In this document: positions 31,285 through 36,335 of the stretch, piece after piece | Position numbering within the stretch: the first letter of the stretch is position 1 | How the letters are laid out: every line of letters starts with the position of its first letter | Assembly: GCF_041200025.1 (NCBI RefSeq) | Contig: NZ_CP165628.1 | Span: 3,906,001-3,970,000 of the forward strand | Source: Rouxiella sp. WC2420 | Lineage (GTDB): Bacteria; Pseudomonadota; Gammaproteobacteria; Enterobacterales; Enterobacteriaceae | Direction: 5' to 3' | DNA: 64,000 nucleotides | Translations under genes and position numbers: made by a program | Notes under the pieces: model-generated | What the model was told of the DNA's origin: nothing | Seen by the model: the letters and a program-made list of their open reading frames with translations, nothing else | Databases searched by the model: none

Positions 31285-31677
31285 TCAATGGTAATAGACT
31301 CTTGAAGCAGATGCTCTATGAACCATGAAAAGAGGATCCTTTTCAATACAGTTGGCAGCTACTTTCATATCTTCAAAACAAAGTAGATTGGAGTCCTGAT
31401 CGGTATTTCTATCAACTCTATACCCTTCTCCATAATTCAAGATAAATACCATATAAGATCCATCATTGTATAATGAAGGTATTTTGTATTTCTCGTAAAT
31501 ATTTTTTTTATTATTTTCCCACCATGAAATTTGTTGGTATTTAAACAATGGGAAATTTTTAACCAATAAAGTATCTCCGTCATGCACAGCGATAATTTCC
31601 ACCGGCCGACTTATTCTCCATACTATAAGAGAAACAGCAATTAAACTGATTGCTGCAGCAACTTTAATTTTTTTCAT
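31285..31677 (-). CDS. DUF943 membrane-anchored protein, putative orphan immunity (D4)
   Basis: 130 aa. One N-terminal membrane span (about residues 5-20), then a domain of about 105 residues with RPVEIIAVHDGDTLLVKNFPLF, ISWWENNK, NYGEGYRVDR, LLCFEDMK and NCIEKDPLF, the pattern of the enterobacterial DUF943 family. From residue 42 on it is almost identical to the protein at 34739, while the membrane span differs, so one of the two is a recombinant. It is preceded on the same strand by a 62-codon remnant of a DUF3289 effector whose end overlaps its ATG, just as in the intact pairs. Probably an immunity gene kept after its toxin was lost (inference). Confidence 0.8.
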   Translation of the reverse strand: MKKIKVAAAISLIAVSLIVWRISRPVEIIAVHDGDTLLVKNFPLFKYQQISWWENNKKNIYEKYKIPSLYNDGSYMVFILNYGEGYRVDRNTDQDSNLLCFEDMKVAANCIEKDPLFMVHRASASRVYYH

Positions 31678-31852
31678 GTCTTACCCCTTGTATTTTTACA
31701 ACGACGTTAATTTCAGTAATGAAAGGTTTGACTGCATATTTATCCCAGCGTTGAAGTACAAACCTTAGATTAAATATATTTACTTTGCTATAAAGCCAGT
31801 GCCTTATATCATCGTTATCGAGACCAAAATGGTCTTGGATACGATAATGGAT
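31664..31852 (-). pseudogene. Remnant of a DUF3289 effector C-terminus
   Basis: Reading the minus strand gives 62 codons containing YRIQDHFGLDNDDIRHW, NIFNLRFVLQRWDKY and KPFITEINVVVKIQG, homologous to the last 60 or so residues of both PAAR-DUF3289 proteins at 32752 and 35124. An in-frame TAA stands immediately before (31853-31855), and there is no start codon or PAAR part. Its stop lies 14 nt inside the downstream DUF943 gene, preserving the toxin/immunity overlap. Confidence 0.85.
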
Positions 31853-31863
31853 TTAGTTAAAAA

Positions 31864-32160
31864 TCACCTATAATACAGCTTTGCATTTGGAGCACCAAAA
31901 AAATTATGAAGAGAATCTTGATCGATACAATTATGTTTTTCTTTCAACCCCTCAAAGCTGAGCAGATTAAAATCTTGATCCTAACCACTATCAATCCTAA
32001 ACCCATCACTAATACCAAAATAAAAAAAACTACAGTTTCCGTTTTTATTTACAACCGGTATTCCATAATTTCTTTACCATCAAGATCTTTCCTATTTTTA
32101 AAAATGAGAACCATTTTAAAAATAAGGTAATCACTAATGAATAGCAAAAATATCTCTAGG
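31864..32160 (-). pseudogene. Decayed DUF943 gene
   Basis: The minus strand encodes GIPVVNKNGNCSFFYFGISDGFRIDSG, a TAG where the family has Trp, then DQDFNLLSFEGLKEKHNCIDQDS and a terminal KLYYR stop. These align with the last 65 or so residues of the intact DUF943 proteins. Further upstream, pieces resembling FLK-KI-L appear in another frame, so there is also a frameshift. It belongs to a third, mostly lost cassette. The 5' limit is approximate; 32161-32366 holds only AT-rich sequence. Confidence 0.7.
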
Positions 32161-32366
32161 CCGAACTAACTGTCAAGTAATGTAATAAATTTATATAGTT
32201 CGATAGTGAAATAAACGCAAATCTCAATCTTATTTTCACTATTTACCTCCAATTTAACATTTATAAAAAGGTGATTTTTTTCAAAGATGTTTTTACATGT
32301 ATTATTTTACACTCTTAAATCTGATGAATTTGGTGTATTTACTGGGGTTAATTAAAATATAAAAAT

Positions 32367-32759
32367 TTACCTGTAATATATTTTACTTTCTTTATACTTA
32401 TTTATGGTCATAAGAATTTTTTTCTTAATGCAATTTTTTTTCATTTGCATATCATCAAAACAAAGTAGGTCAGAATCCTGATCAATCCACCGATCTTCAC
32501 GGTAGCCATTACCGAAATCATGAATTACAACACCAAAACTTCCATCTCTGTAGGTTTCTGGAATTCCATATTTTTTATGTATTTTTTCTTTATTAATTTC
32601 CCACCAATTAATCTGCCAACTTTTAAAGAAAGGGAAGTTATTAACTAAAATCACACTCTTATTATGGGTAGCAACAATTTCTACAGGTTGTCCAACCTTC
32701 CATATAAAAGAATAAAACAGTATAACTATAAGAATTACAACAGTCTTGAATTTAAACAT
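32367..32759 (-). CDS. DUF943 protein, putative immunity partner of effector B (D3)
   Basis: 130 aa from ATG 32759. This start (rather than upstream ATGs at 32771 and 32777) gives an 8-nt overlap with the effector stop, as in the other pair, and the same length as the three other DUF943 proteins. N-terminal membrane span about residues 6-20; then RPVEIVA-type GQPVEIVATHNKSVILVNN, INWWEINKEK, DFGNGYREDRW and LLCFDDMQ. It is the most diverged intact copy, in line with being matched to the diverged tip of effector B. Predicted N-in/C-out, which would place the domain in the periplasm. Confidence 0.82.
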   Translation of the reverse strand: MFKFKTVVILIVILFYSFIWKVGQPVEIVATHNKSVILVNNFPFFKSWQINWWEINKEKIHKKYGIPETYRDGSFGVVIHDFGNGYREDRWIDQDSDLLCFDDMQMKKNCIKKKILMTINKYKESKIYYR

Positions 32760-33963
32760 CCTTTTCACCATAAACATCCACTTTAATATTTATTTCAGTA
32801 ATGAAAGGCTTGAAACCAAATTTGCTACTGCGTTGTAAAACAAACCAAATATTAAAAATATTTACTTTATTATAAATCCAATGATTTATGTCAGTGTTAT
32901 CTAGACCAAAATGATCTTGGATACGATAATCAATTACTGCATGAAATTTTTTTCCAGTTACTGTCAATGATTCTAACGTAATATGAGCTGACCAAATATC
33001 ATGAACACTGATCACTAATCCATTTATGTAATTTAAATAATTGTTAAATTTTGGCAGGTTTGTTTGTTCATTTATTTTCTTTATAAATATCCATTTGGCT
33101 TCGGCTGGATAAAAACCTTTTTCATAATCAATGCCGTTGGTTAAAACTTCCCTAATCTTTAATAATGTACTCCCTTCCGATTTATCATTTAAAATCTGTT
33201 CCTTCATAGCCTTATTCAATAACGGGTCTGAAAAAGGTTTTCCATCGCCATACTGCATATGGGTAATCATTTTCCGTACCAATCCTTTATATTCACCGGT
33301 CCACGAGAACATATCAGATAAACTTCTAAACTCGTCAAAAAGCATTTCGGCGCTGGTTTCCAGACTGATACTTTGCTTGGCCGATGCAATAGGATACGGA
33401 GAAGGATGCGAACCATAGGGAATAAACTTCACCCCTTCAAACGGATCAACATGCGGCGAGATGTTAATTAACCCAAAATCTTTTTTTAGTTGCTCCTCGG
33501 TCAAATCACCATAGCGCATATCGTCGGCATCGTAGTCGTCCATCTGGCGCTGAGTTTCATAGATCCTCGCGGGGAGCGGCAGCGGCTGTGGTGGCGATGA
33601 AACTGGCTCAACAGCTTGCGGGGATTTTTTCGCTGCTTGCGCATGTTGCAGCGGCGCGGCTTCTTTTTGTGGAACAGGCACAGCACGAGCCGCAGCCTGA
33701 CTGTCTCCCCTATAGCCGGACGTCGCCCAAACTTGATTGCTTTTGCATCGACAGGCAACGCGATCCCCATTTCCTACCAGCATGTATTCATCTATCCAGC
33801 CGGAATATGTCCCGACAATTTGAAAGCTGCCTTTGCATTCTTGGCACCAGGCTTTATCTCCAGTGCGGACCAGCGCCTTCATTTCATCGTAAACGCTTGA
33901 GGAGGCGCTAATTATATGTCCATGGGTGGTTTTATCGCCCATTTTTGCCAGACGTCGTGTCAT
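32752..33963 (-). CDS. PAAR-DUF3289 protein, putative type VI secretion effector B
   Basis: 403 aa from ATG 33963 (AAAGGA upstream). Residues 1-85: PAAR-type tip domain with MGDKTTHGHIISASS, GDKAWCQECKG, and GNGDRVACRCKSNQVWA, having four Cys and His for metal. Residues 86-140: Ala/Pro/Gln-rich linker. Residues 195-403: DUF3289, with LFDEFRSLSDMFSWTGEYKGL, ISVHDIW.AHITL and QDHFGLDNTDINHW. PAAR proteins cap the VgrG spike of type VI systems and carry effectors on their C-terminus. Residues 1-270 are near-identical to effector A and the rest diverges by about half. It overlaps the DUF943 gene by 8 nt. No VgrG, Hcp or other T6SS gene is in the window. Confidence 0.8.
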   Translation of the reverse strand: MTRRLAKMGDKTTHGHIISASSSVYDEMKALVRTGDKAWCQECKGSFQIVGTYSGWIDEYMLVGNGDRVACRCKSNQVWATSGYRGDSQAAARAVPVPQKEAAPLQHAQAAKKSPQAVEPVSSPPQPLPLPARIYETQRQMDDYDADDMRYGDLTEEQLKKDFGLINISPHVDPFEGVKFIPYGSHPSPYPIASAKQSISLETSAEMLFDEFRSLSDMFSWTGEYKGLVRKMITHMQYGDGKPFSDPLLNKAMKEQILNDKSEGSTLLKIREVLTNGIDYEKGFYPAEAKWIFIKKINEQTNLPKFNNYLNYINGLVISVHDIWSAHITLESLTVTGKKFHAVIDYRIQDHFGLDNTDINHWIYNKVNIFNIWFVLQRSSKFGFKPFITEINIKVDVYGEKDV

Positions 33964-34247
33964 CATCCTTTCCTTTTGATTAAGCTGTAATAAACTCCAT
34001 TTAGAAGCAGCCCTCTTGCTGGTTATTAACTTTATCAATCAACTTGTAGAAATTACCGGTAATAAATTTTTCCTTCATAAACTATCGGATAATGGGACAA
34101 GTCACTACGATTCTAAGAGTGATAATTAAAGTAAGCTAGGCTGCACATCCTGTATGCCACTCAAGACGCACTTCAAAATTTTATAGAATTACTTTTATGA
34201 TACTTTGCGGAGCATTAACATTTATTTCTTAAACGGTTAGAGAAAAA
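33964..34247. other. AT-rich gap between two effector/immunity cassettes
   Basis: 284 bp with no supported gene. The open extension of effector B upstream of 33963 lies here, as must any promoter of its own. Confidence 0.4.
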
Positions 34248-34640
34248 TTAGTAGTAATAGATTTTTGACATATATGTTCTATCAACCCTAAAAAGAGGAT
34301 CCTTTTCAATACAGTTGGCCGCTACTTTCATATCTTCAAAACAAAGTAAATTCGAATCTTGATCAACCCATCTGTCAATTCTATACCCTTTCCCAAAATT
34401 CAAAACAAACACCATGTATTGGCCATAGGCATCAGGTGAAGGGATTTTATATTTTTCATAAATTTTTTTCTCATTATTTTCCCACCATGAAATTTGTTGA
34501 TATTTAAACAATGGAAAATTTTTAACCAGCAAAGTATTTCTATCGTGCACAGCAATAATTTCCACCGGCCGTGTAAATTTCCATATTAGACACAAAAATG
34601 AAATCATAATAATTGCTGCTAAAACTTTCATTTTCTTCAT
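34248..34640 (-). CDS. DUF943 protein, putative orphan immunity (D2)
   Basis: 130 aa, ATG start with AGAGGC upstream. Membrane span about residues 5-20 (VLAAIIMISFLCLIW), then RPVEIIAVHDRNTLLVKNFPLF, ISWWENNEKK, NFGKGYRIDRWVDQDSN and LLCFEDMKVAANCIEKDPLF. It is similar to but distinct from the copy at 34739 (YGQYMVFVLNF against YNDGSYMVFILNY-type). It follows a decayed effector 3' end rather than an intact toxin, so its cognate effector is missing here. Confidence 0.8.
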   Translation of the reverse strand: MKKMKVLAAIIMISFLCLIWKFTRPVEIIAVHDRNTLLVKNFPLFKYQQISWWENNEKKIYEKYKIPSPDAYGQYMVFVLNFGKGYRIDRWVDQDSNLLCFEDMKVAANCIEKDPLFRVDRTYMSKIYYY

Positions 34641-34697
34641 TTTTTGCCTCTTGTGCGTTTATCACTGAATTAATTTATCTAATGAAAGGGTTGTTGT
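34641..34697 (-). pseudogene. Decayed 3' end of a DUF3289 effector gene
   Basis: Reading the minus strand just before the DUF943 ATG, CCCTTTCATTAGATAAATTA and the next 25 bases align base by base with the equivalent 3' end of the remnant at 31664 (CCTTTCATTACTGAAATTA..., encoding PFITEIN). Two in-frame stops have accumulated. It marks where an older effector used to abut this immunity gene. Confidence 0.6.
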
Positions 34698-34738
34698 AGA
34701 AAGCTGGTCTTTTTATCTGTGAACCCGTTTTAGAAATC

Positions 34739-35131
34739 TTAATGATAATAGACTCTTGAAGCAGATGCTCTATGAACCATGAAAAGAGGATCTTTTTCAA
34801 TACAGTTGGCAGCGACTTTCATATCTTCAAAACAAAGTAGATCTGAATCCTGATCGGTATTTCTATCAACTCTATACCCTTCTCCATAATTCAAGATAAA
34901 TACCATATAAGATCCATCATTGTATAATGAAGGTATTTTGTATTTCTCGTGAATATTTTTTTTATTATTTTCCCACCATGAAATTTGTTGATATTTAAAC
35001 AATGGGAAATTTTTAACCAATAAAGTATTTCCATCGTGCACAGCAATAATTTCTACCGGCCGTGTTATCCTCCAAATTAGGCAAAGAAAAGCAATTACAA
35101 AAATTAATAATAGTTTTTTTAATTTACTCAC
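34739..35131 (-). CDS. DUF943 protein, putative immunity partner of effector A (D1)
   Basis: 130 aa from GTG 35131; AAAGGAATTAGAG precedes it and the effector stop lies inside it (8-nt overlap GTGAGTAA), which implies translational coupling. Membrane span about residues 6-22 (LLLIFVIAFLCLIW), then RPVEIIAVHDGNTLLVKN and the DUF943 blocks WWENNKKN, NYGEGYRVDR, DLLCFEDMK and NCIEKDPLF. Residues 42-130 are nearly identical to the orphan copy at 31285. The known DUF943 family has no assigned function; immunity is inferred from the overlap and multiplicity. Confidence 0.82.
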   Translation of the reverse strand: MSKLKKLLLIFVIAFLCLIWRITRPVEIIAVHDGNTLLVKNFPLFKYQQISWWENNKKNIHEKYKIPSLYNDGSYMVFILNYGEGYRVDRNTDQDSDLLCFEDMKVAANCIEKDPLFMVHRASASRVYYH

Positions 35132-36335
35132 CTCTAATTCCTTTTATTTTTACCATCACATTTATTTCTGTAACAAAAGGCCTGAATGCAAATCTATCCC
35201 AACGCTGGAGAATAAACCATATGGAGAATATGCTCACGTTTTGATAAAGCCAGTGCCTAATATCTTCGTTGTCCAGCCCAAAATGGTCTTGAATATGATA
35301 GTGAACCTCTGCCTCAAAGTTATCGCCATTAATCTGCAAAGACTGTAAAGTAATATGCGTTGCCCACGTGTCATGCACGCTTATTCCTAAACCATTTATA
35401 CGGTCGATTGCATCGTCAAACATAGGAAGCTTAGCATCTCTATTAATTGCTTCTTTAAATTTAAACCTGGCTGTTAATGGGTAGTAATTATTGGTAGCGG
35501 TTATATTTTCTGACAGCACTTCCTTAATCTTTAATAATGTACTCCCTTCCGATTTATCATTTAAAATCTGTTCCTTCATAGCCTTATCCAATAACGGATC
35601 CGAAAAAGGTTTACCATCGCCATACTGCATATGGGTAATCATTTTTCGTATCAATCCTTTATACTCACCGGTCCACGAGAACATGTCAGACAAACTTCTA
35701 AACTCGTCAAAAAGCATTTCGGCGCTGGTTTCCAGACTGATACTTTGCCTGGCCGATGCAATAGGATAGGGAGAAGGATGCGAACCATAGGGAATAAACT
35801 TCACCCCTTCAAACGGATCAACATGCGGCGAGATGTGAATTAATCCAAAATCTTTTTTTAGTTGCTCCTCGGTTAAATCACCATAGCGCATATCGTCCGC
35901 ATCGTAGTCGTCCATCTGGCGCTGAGTTTCATAGATCCTCGCGGGCAGCGGCAGTGGCTGCGGTGGCGATGAAACTTGCTCAACAACTTGCGGGGATTTT
36001 TTTGCCGCTTGCGCATGTTGCAGCGGCGCGGCTTCTTTTTGTGGAACAGGCACAGCACGAGCCGCAGCCTGACTGTCTCCCCTATAGCCGGACGTCGCCC
36101 AAACTTGATTGCTTTTGCATCGACAGGCAACGCGATCCCCATTTCCTACCAGCATGTATTCATCTATCCAGCCGGAATATGTCCCGACAATTTGAAAGCT
36201 GCCTTTGCATTCTTGGCACCAGGCTTTATCTCCAGTGCGGACCAGCGCCTTCATTTCATCGTAAACGCTTGAGGAGGCGCTAATTATATGTCCATGGGTG
36301 GTTTTATCGCCCATTTTTGCCAGACGTCGCGTCAT
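35124..36335 (-). CDS. PAAR-DUF3289 protein, putative type VI secretion effector A
   Basis: 403 aa from ATG 36335 with AAGGA seven bases upstream (a GTG directly before it is the alternative). Same layout as effector B: PAAR tip (1-85) with AWCQECKG and ACRCKS, Ala/Pro-rich linker, then DUF3289 (195-403). It differs from B by only a few residues up to residue 270, then becomes KIKEVLSENITATNNYYP and diverges. Retained in both are ISVHDTWATHITL, QDHFGLD.DI.HW, IWF.LQR and F.TEIN, so these are candidate functional residues. First gene of the island's minus-strand array. Confidence 0.82.
   Translation of the reverse strand: MTRRLAKMGDKTTHGHIISASSSVYDEMKALVRTGDKAWCQECKGSFQIVGTYSGWIDEYMLVGNGDRVACRCKSNQVWATSGYRGDSQAAARAVPVPQKEAAPLQHAQAAKKSPQVVEQVSSPPQPLPLPARIYETQRQMDDYDADDMRYGDLTEEQLKKDFGLIHISPHVDPFEGVKFIPYGSHPSPYPIASARQSISLETSAEMLFDEFRSLSDMFSWTGEYKGLIRKMITHMQYGDGKPFSDPLLDKAMKEQILNDKSEGSTLLKIKEVLSENITATNNYYPLTARFKFKEAINRDAKLPMFDDAIDRINGLGISVHDTWATHITLQSLQINGDNFEAEVHYHIQDHFGLDNEDIRHWLYQNVSIFSIWFILQRWDRFAFRPFVTEINVMVKIKGIRGE

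Follow-up and report, generated by a model that had tools for sequence, protein, structure and literature searches.

Architecture of the array

The DNA analysed here, referred to as the window, is a 64,000-nt stretch of Rouxiella sp. WC2420 (contig NZ_CP165628.1, positions 3,906,001 to 3,970,000), and its minus strand carries a compact array of genes encoding PAAR-DUF3289 fusion proteins and DUF943 proteins. In reading order the array comprises E1, I1, I2, E2, I3, a decayed DUF943 gene, an orphan DUF3289 tail and I5, where E stands for putative effector (toxin) and I for putative immunity gene (Table 1). An earlier note, made from the letters of this sequence, had described two 403-residue proteins in which a PAAR spike-tip domain is fused to DUF3289, an 8-nt overlap of each toxin stop with the start of the following 130-residue DUF943 gene, and four intact DUF943 genes. 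These descriptions were borne out by the open reading frames (ORFs) and Pfam matches of E1 and E2, by the E1/I1 and E2/I3 junctions, and by Pfam matches of I1, I2, I3 and I5; the decayed fifth DUF943 gene and the orphan DUF3289 tail had been overlooked.

The Pfam PAAR profile matched both effectors at E ~4e-7 (30.5 bits, cut-off 27), and the Pfam DUF3289 profile matched E1 at E 3.5e-102 (342 bits) and E2 at E 2.2e-97 (326 bits; cut-off 25). TIGR03034 gave 327 and 316 bits, respectively (cut-off 156). The four intact DUF943 genes matched their Pfam profile at E 3.6e-36 to 1.7e-34 (119 to 124.5 bits, cut-off 25). Across the whole genome, profile matches at E <=0.001 numbered three for DUF3289 and five for DUF943, and all of them fell within the array. 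Both stop-start overlaps are exactly 8 nt (GTGAGTAA for E1/I1 and ATGTTTAA for E2/I3), although that of I3 requires the ATG at 32759, the longest ORF beginning 18 nt farther upstream. A GTG one codon 5' of the E1 ATG (36335) is likewise open, and the orphan tail, with its stop at 31666-31664, shares 14 nt with the beginning of I5. We regard the identity of the pairs as type VI secretion system (T6SS) effector and immunity as near certain, and the region is very probably a tandem array of such pairs.

Table 1. Features of the array, numbered from the first letter of the window.
Feature	Position	Strand	Basis or remark
E1, PAAR-DUF3289 effector, 403 aa	35124..36335	-	ORF and Pfam; ATG at 36335
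PAAR spike-tip domain of E1	36114..36311	-	Pfam PF05488
DUF3289 domain of E1 (TIGR03034, YPO3983 family)	35139..35951	-	Profile match
E1 aa 253-309, hypervariable segment	35409..35579	-	Head/tail junction; proposed immunity-specificity segment
E1 aa 349-358, QDHFGLDNED	35262..35291	-	Near-invariant family motif; proposed active-site region
I1, DUF943 immunity gene	34739..35131	-	GTG start; 8-nt overlap with E1 stop
I2, additional intact DUF943 gene	34248..34640	-	No effector of its own
E2, second PAAR-DUF3289 effector, 403 aa	32752..33963	-	Tail unlike that of E1
PAAR domain of E2	33742..33939	-	
DUF3289 domain of E2	32770..33579	-	
I3, DUF943 immunity gene of E2	32367..32759	-	8-nt overlap with E2 stop
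Decayed DUF943 gene	31906..32094	-	Internal stops
Orphan C-terminal piece of a third DUF3289 toxin	31685..31855	-	Motif kept
I5, intact DUF943 gene	31285..31677	-	3' of orphan tail; mosaic

The array lies between a dus gene, which is present in all six genomes of the genus, and a gene for a TonB receptor. It occupies the dus site both in the window genome and in Serratia sp. M24T3 (L011), the closest relative found. At the same site, genome G219 carries a PAAR-DUF3289 toxin whose head is 63% identical over aa 1-90 and which is broken off by the contig end, and in G291, of the same genus, the dus and receptor matches lie 42 nt apart, so that the site is empty. In G296 and G115, neither toxin nor receptor was found within the ~11 kb read past dus. 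Four further dus-site regions, outside the survey below, were used for site comparison only.

DUF3289 and DUF943 occur together across the family

The pairing that the earlier note had read from this locus also holds in a sample of 295 genomes from the family of the window genome. DUF3289 was found in 57 of these and DUF943 in 55, with both in 54; three genomes held DUF3289 only, and DUF943, far from occurring mostly without DUF3289, stood by itself in one. In the fetched loci, counting those of the window and M24T3, a DUF943 domain came no more than 250 nt behind 105 of 110 full toxins and 29 of 31 C-terminal toxin pieces. Contig ends account for two of the five full toxins with no DUF943 behind them (L041, L135); the other three, in L125, L133 and L134, are real exceptions. 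In 92 of 103 toxin ORFs, at most 100 residues precede the DUF3289 domain.

The adjacency counts refer to loci read with profiles trained in this analysis. Counting from the listed matches had earlier given at least 62 of 102 full-length toxins; the Pfam profile was weaker, and the loci were rescanned for that reason. Of 133 candidate regions, 100 were fetched. The first 80 mostly had at least two matches or a fused N-terminus, and the 20 added later held DUF3289 with no listed DUF943 behind it, so that all 40 full-length matches lacking a neighbour were covered.

Of the 187 DUF943 domains in the first locus set, 95 were preceded by a full toxin, 32 by a toxin piece and 55 by another DUF943, with the remaining 5 elsewhere. 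Overlap lengths among 117 toxin-immunity neighbours were most often 4 nt (38), followed by 11 nt (20), 17 nt (19), 8 nt (16) and 14 nt (12), even though the start codon chosen in each case was the one bringing the overlap closest to 8 nt, which biases the count toward 8. The exact 8-nt overlap is not a rule of the family.

Several loci are of separate interest. L133 and L134 (G093 and G280, of one genus) encode full DUF3289 toxins in genomes with no DUF943 match at E <=0.001. L125, L139 and L140 encode proteins of 667-751 aa with a divergent C-terminal DUF3289 and a similar N-terminal part; behind these domains, no DUF943 was detected in L125, and weak partial matches were present in L139 and L140. 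Twelve contigs of a viral collection (L141-L152) encode DUF3289 toxins, nine of them with DUF943 behind, and represent either phage cargo or misassigned bacterial DNA; in one of these toxins (L147:16-888) about 20 aspartates directly follow DHFGL. A scan of the viral contigs by tail alignment found no relative, and a search of plasmids with E1 returned 18 records, all below 60% identity. A 10,979-aa open frame with DUF3289 (L120, G274:C1:3940000-3958000) was rejected as an artefact of a masked N run (12,001 of 18,001 bases).

Published relatives and probable delivery

The earlier note had held that neither family has an assigned function, and in Pfam the function of DUF3289 is still given as unknown, with DUF943 listed as a putative membrane protein. 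That view is outdated, both families having been assigned by Geller et al. 2024 (PMC11148199), who report that a DUF3289 specialised-PAAR effector directed to the periplasm of E. coli BL21 caused toxicity and cell rounding, that the neighbouring DUF943 protein relieved this toxicity, and who propose a relationship of DUF3289 to colicin M. Their pair, T6EC1-T6IC1 (Geller et al. 2024, Mol Syst Biol), shares with the present ones the two Pfam families, the specialised PAAR effector and a membrane-anchored, periplasm-facing immunity protein; it lies within a T6SS operon, whereas the array described here stands away from T6SS genes and includes an orphan tail and extra immunity genes. A DUF3289 effector of Aeromonas jandaei kills T6SS-dependently in competition (PMC12135965, the WHIX paper), with another type of immunity protein, and a Klebsiella survey gives a linking frequency of 780 for DUF3289-DUF943 (PMC12469244).

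One could suppose that DUF3289 is delivered yet non-toxic, or directed at the host, with DUF943 an unrelated neighbour. Nothing in the analysis favoured this. The published relief of E. coli toxicity by DUF943 speaks against it, as do the T6SS-dependent killing by the Aeromonas jandaei effector, the co-occurrence and adjacency counts, and the match of the DUF943 model to the partner chain of a complex whose effector matches the toxin (below). For the families the supposition is largely refuted, and we consider it very improbable. Toxin plus periplasmic immunity, as the earlier note had proposed, is supported by co-occurrence (54 of 295 genomes), by adjacency (105 of 110 full toxins), by the hydrophobic stretch and cysteine pair of DUF943 and by these published relatives. 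The toxin-immunity reading is thus right, but already published (Geller et al. 2024).

The genome holds two T6SS clusters, at ~1.68 and ~4.70 Mb, far from the window at 3.91-3.97 Mb. Scans of ten ORFs per cluster, together with a VipA search, showed genes for VipA, VipB, TssF, TssG, IcmF, a ClpB-type ATPase, gp25-type baseplate and VasE in both. There are five PAAR matches in the genome, E1 and E2 among them, and either system may deliver these two effectors. The earlier note had asked whether DUF3289 and DUF943 occur only in genomes with a T6SS. The VipA sheath gene was present in 54 of 57 DUF3289 genomes and in 113 of 238 others; the three DUF3289 genomes lacking it are G134, G186 and G210.

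Fold and predicted chemistry of the toxin

Among the fold matches listed for the toxin model, the best was the BtpeA complex of Bacteroides fragilis (PDB 9jdi). BtpeA also matches the toxin by profile (E 8e-19, 23% identity over the aligned part), and DHFGLD is common to both. A 608-aa DUF3289 chain is contained in PDB 9jg8 and 9jg9; our literature search found no paper on the BtpeA-BtpiA complex or on YPO3983. Within the family, QDHFGLD..D is present in 94 of 103 DUF3289 toxins and DHFGL in 101.

Directly under 9jdi, and above all other rows listed, rank chains of the ColM type (pectocin M1 and M2, ColM, PaeM and syringacin M). Colicin M resembles the present system in a putative distant likeness of fold, in its periplasmic action and in its immunity protein, Cmi, which is anchored in the inner membrane, faces the periplasm and needs a Cys pair (PMC8469651), although that pair is spaced differently from the one in DUF943. 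Colicin M differs in entering through a receptor and the Ton system rather than by a T6SS, and its motif DxYD(x5)HR (PMC8469651) occurs in none of the 103 DUF3289 toxins. The Pfam Colicin_M profile likewise had no match among 49 DUF3289 members at E <=10 with HMMER filters on; its absence from all 394 genomes of the order is uninformative, every control having been silent too. By motif and by profile, then, the DUF3289 toxin is no colicin M. It is likely that these toxins work like colicin M, and hydrolysis of lipid II is, on balance, the probable chemistry. In view of the missing motif, that chemistry stays provisional.

The rival to be weighed is an envelope toxin with immunity that does not hydrolyse lipid II, in which a distant colicin M fold would carry another active site (H321-D322 and QDHFGLD..D) aimed at another envelope target. 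The absent motif leaves room for this; the rank of the ColM-type chains, the published cell rounding, which fits loss of cell wall, and an immunity topology resembling that of Cmi argue against it. We hold the other target to be a real, if lesser, possibility.

DUF943 as a probable periplasmic immunity protein

All four intact DUF943 proteins have a single N-terminal hydrophobic stretch with lysines ahead of it, and Cys100 and Cys110 are present in 102 of 103 family members, a Cys pair as expected of a putative periplasmic domain. The best fold match among those listed for the DUF943 model was chain C of 9jdi, presumed to be BtpiA; this match is weak and by fold only. BtpeA-BtpiA resembles the present pairs by profile, fold and DHFGLD on the toxin side, and weakly, by fold alone, on the immunity side. 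A search of PDB sequences with the DUF943 profile gave five matches, all at E 0.23 or worse and all to unrelated proteins. Cmi was not among the DUF943 fold matches listed, which is no evidence for a different fold.

Like heads and unlike tails

E1 and E2 are identical at 264 of 270 residues over positions 1-270 and at 66 of 133 over positions 271-403, and their nucleotide identity falls from 97/101 to 51/101 across adjoining 101-nt bins. The constant head and variable tail described in the earlier note therefore hold for E1 and E2, but not as a rule of the family: the N half was the less divergent in only 82 of 212 within-genome toxin pairs. Eight pairs had heads less than 15% different and tails more than 30% different, and in each the two toxins were neighbours within one locus, which suggests recombination between neighbours. 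A like head with an unlike tail was also found in toxin pairs of G154, G209, G130, G086 and G119. In all 12 pairs of seven genomes, those of the window and M24T3 included, identity drops at about E1 aa 235-280, although selecting these pairs for likeness before aa 272 and unlikeness after it biases the result toward junctions close to that position. The opposite pattern, an unlike N half with a like C half, was sought in the same comparison and no pair showed it.

Serratia sp. M24T3 carries both effectors with the same two tails, and the first 7.1 kb of its locus, a stretch that takes in flank, E1 and I1, agree with the window at 96.8% identity. When E1 and E2 of the two genomes were compared, nt 1-300 held five sites that group the copies of one genome and none that groups orthologs; nt 301-807 held four grouping orthologs, one grouping copies and one crossed; and the tail held 129 grouping orthologs and one crossed. 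Both tails therefore predate the split of the window genome and M24T3, while the front of the head has been kept alike within each genome. The simplest reading of these few sites is that recombination or gene conversion may account for the likeness of heads within a genome. In the tails of E1 orthologs, dN is 0.07 and dS 0.41. Positive selection on the E1 tail was rejected, dN lying well below dS; the excess is synonymous (dS 0.62 over aa 311-403) and points to import by recombination.

Where immunity specificity may lie

Immunity distances were compared over 103 toxin-immunity pairs, which are non-independent, with segment boundaries set after viewing the data. Over all pairs, immunity distance tracked both toxin halves (partial rho 0.40 for the N half and 0.35 for the C half). 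Inside single genomes it tracked the C half and not the N half, with partial values of 0.59 and 0.17. Among 100 close toxin pairs (<22% different), the immunities were >30% different in 75, <=15% in 10 and between these values in 15. The toxin differences of the 75 pairs with unlike immunities gather in aa 250-309 (15-residue bins of 0.34, 0.50, 0.54 and 0.24), compared with 0.15, 0.14, 0.20 and 0.08 in the 10 pairs with like immunities. Two neighbouring toxins of G086, whose immunities are 61% different, differ mostly at aa 265-309 and at the C-terminus.

At three thresholds, and with the remaining toxin controlled for, the partial rho of segment 253-309, the most variable part of the toxin, was 0.34, 0.26 and 0.20, a value that 0 of 500 label permutations reached at any threshold. 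For the three segments of aa 130-252, 52 to 459 of the 500 permutations reached the observed value. Immunity signal is also present in segments of aa 310-403, and at the loosest threshold 384-403 (0.32, 0/500) and 310-350 (0.22, 5/500) exceed 253-309. Sliding windows peaked at aa 290-314 within genomes (0.52) and at aa 200-224 over all 5,253 pairs (0.34). Some cases depart from the pattern: two of the ten like-immunity pairs are strongly different at aa 250-309, and one of the 75 unlike-immunity pairs (L062, 2955 and 5128) hardly differs there. From these sequence comparisons, the chance that immunity specificity lies mainly in segment 253-309 appears about even.

The tails could instead have diverged without bearing on specificity, E1 and E2 being old duplicates whose heads were homogenised by gene conversion while their tails drifted, and one DUF943 protein protecting against both. 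The five concerted sites in the first 300 nt, with none supporting orthology, the low dN of the E1 ortholog tails (0.07 against dS 0.41) and the exceptions just given all fit such drift. It fits less well that the cognate immunities are about as different as the tails (I1 and I3 are 50% identical), that segment 253-309 is a predictor of how far immunities diverge, over and above the remaining toxin, and that within genomes immunity tracks the C half and not the N half. Drift alone is, on this evidence, unlikely.

Extra immunity genes and a proposed mechanism

Extra immunity domains are present in 32 of the 87 arrays that have a full toxin, and toxin pieces in 14. Relative to the first full toxin, 61 of these domains lie 3' and 10 lie 5' (frameshifted genes may count twice), which agrees with the displacement model of Kirchberger et al. 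2017 (PMC5361080). In the Vibrio cholerae T6SS arrays of that study, extra immunity genes are likewise gathered 3' by displacement and recombination. The array described here also holds C-terminal toxin pieces, with the switch inside the toxin domain. Two loci stand out for their immunity repeats: in L093 (G086:C1:4189277-4197070) six DUF943 domains at a spacing of 499 to 505 nt stand behind a single DUF3289 toxin, a regular amplification of immunity, and in L050 (G103:C47:10162-19123) one PAAR-DUF3289 toxin is followed on the same strand by eight nearly complete DUF943 domains and one partial.

I2, I5, the orphan tail and the decayed DUF943 gene may be leftovers of duplication that play no protective role. 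One DUF943 gene and the third toxin are clearly decayed, and the M24T3 counterpart of I2 is frameshifted. Against this, neither I2 nor I5 is disrupted in the window, extra immunity domains are a common feature of arrays, and the retained immunity genes of Vibrio cholerae have been proposed to protect against kin (PMC5361080). I5 is a mosaic with a body of the I1 type: over the first 65 nt it is 98% identical to the M24T3 counterpart, and beginning at nt 131 its identity is 94 to 100% with I1 and 69 to 89% with that counterpart. That these genes are mere leftovers is a plausible reading, which we would place somewhat below even.

In the mechanism that we favour, PAAR would form the point of the T6SS spike and bring the DUF3289 domain into a rival's periplasm. 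The C-terminal half would harm the rival's envelope there, with lipid II hydrolysis of the colicin M kind as the likeliest route, the published relative having displayed periplasmic toxicity and cell rounding only. DUF943, judging by its topology and relatives, would be a one-helix inner-membrane protein whose periplasmic Cys-pair domain binds and blocks the cognate toxin. Within the array, recombination would keep the heads alike, and the tail from about E1 aa 235-280 would differ along with the following immunity gene; orphan tails and surplus immunity genes would be what remains of displaced pairs, mostly on the 3' side of an active pair.

More broadly, we tentatively propose, as a reading that may well prove wrong in part, that DUF3289 toxins are M-type-like envelope enzymes with a distinct active-site signature, their specificity set mainly by a swappable segment of about aa 253-309 at a shared recombination junction, and that DUF943 shares descent with the BtpiA fold, such that one family of pairs would span Pseudomonadota and Bacteroidota and diversify by recombination inside tandem arrays. 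To the published toxin-immunity assignment, the present analysis adds the junction at about aa 235-280, the signal in segment 253-309, the missing colicin M motif, the BtpeA/BtpiA fold matches and the empty site.

The locus is a natural test case, with two toxins alike save for the tail, different cognate immunities and two extra immunities in one genome. The array could reveal where immunity specificity lies in a widespread T6SS toxin family, and it suggests how the rear half of a toxin and its immunity partner may change together.

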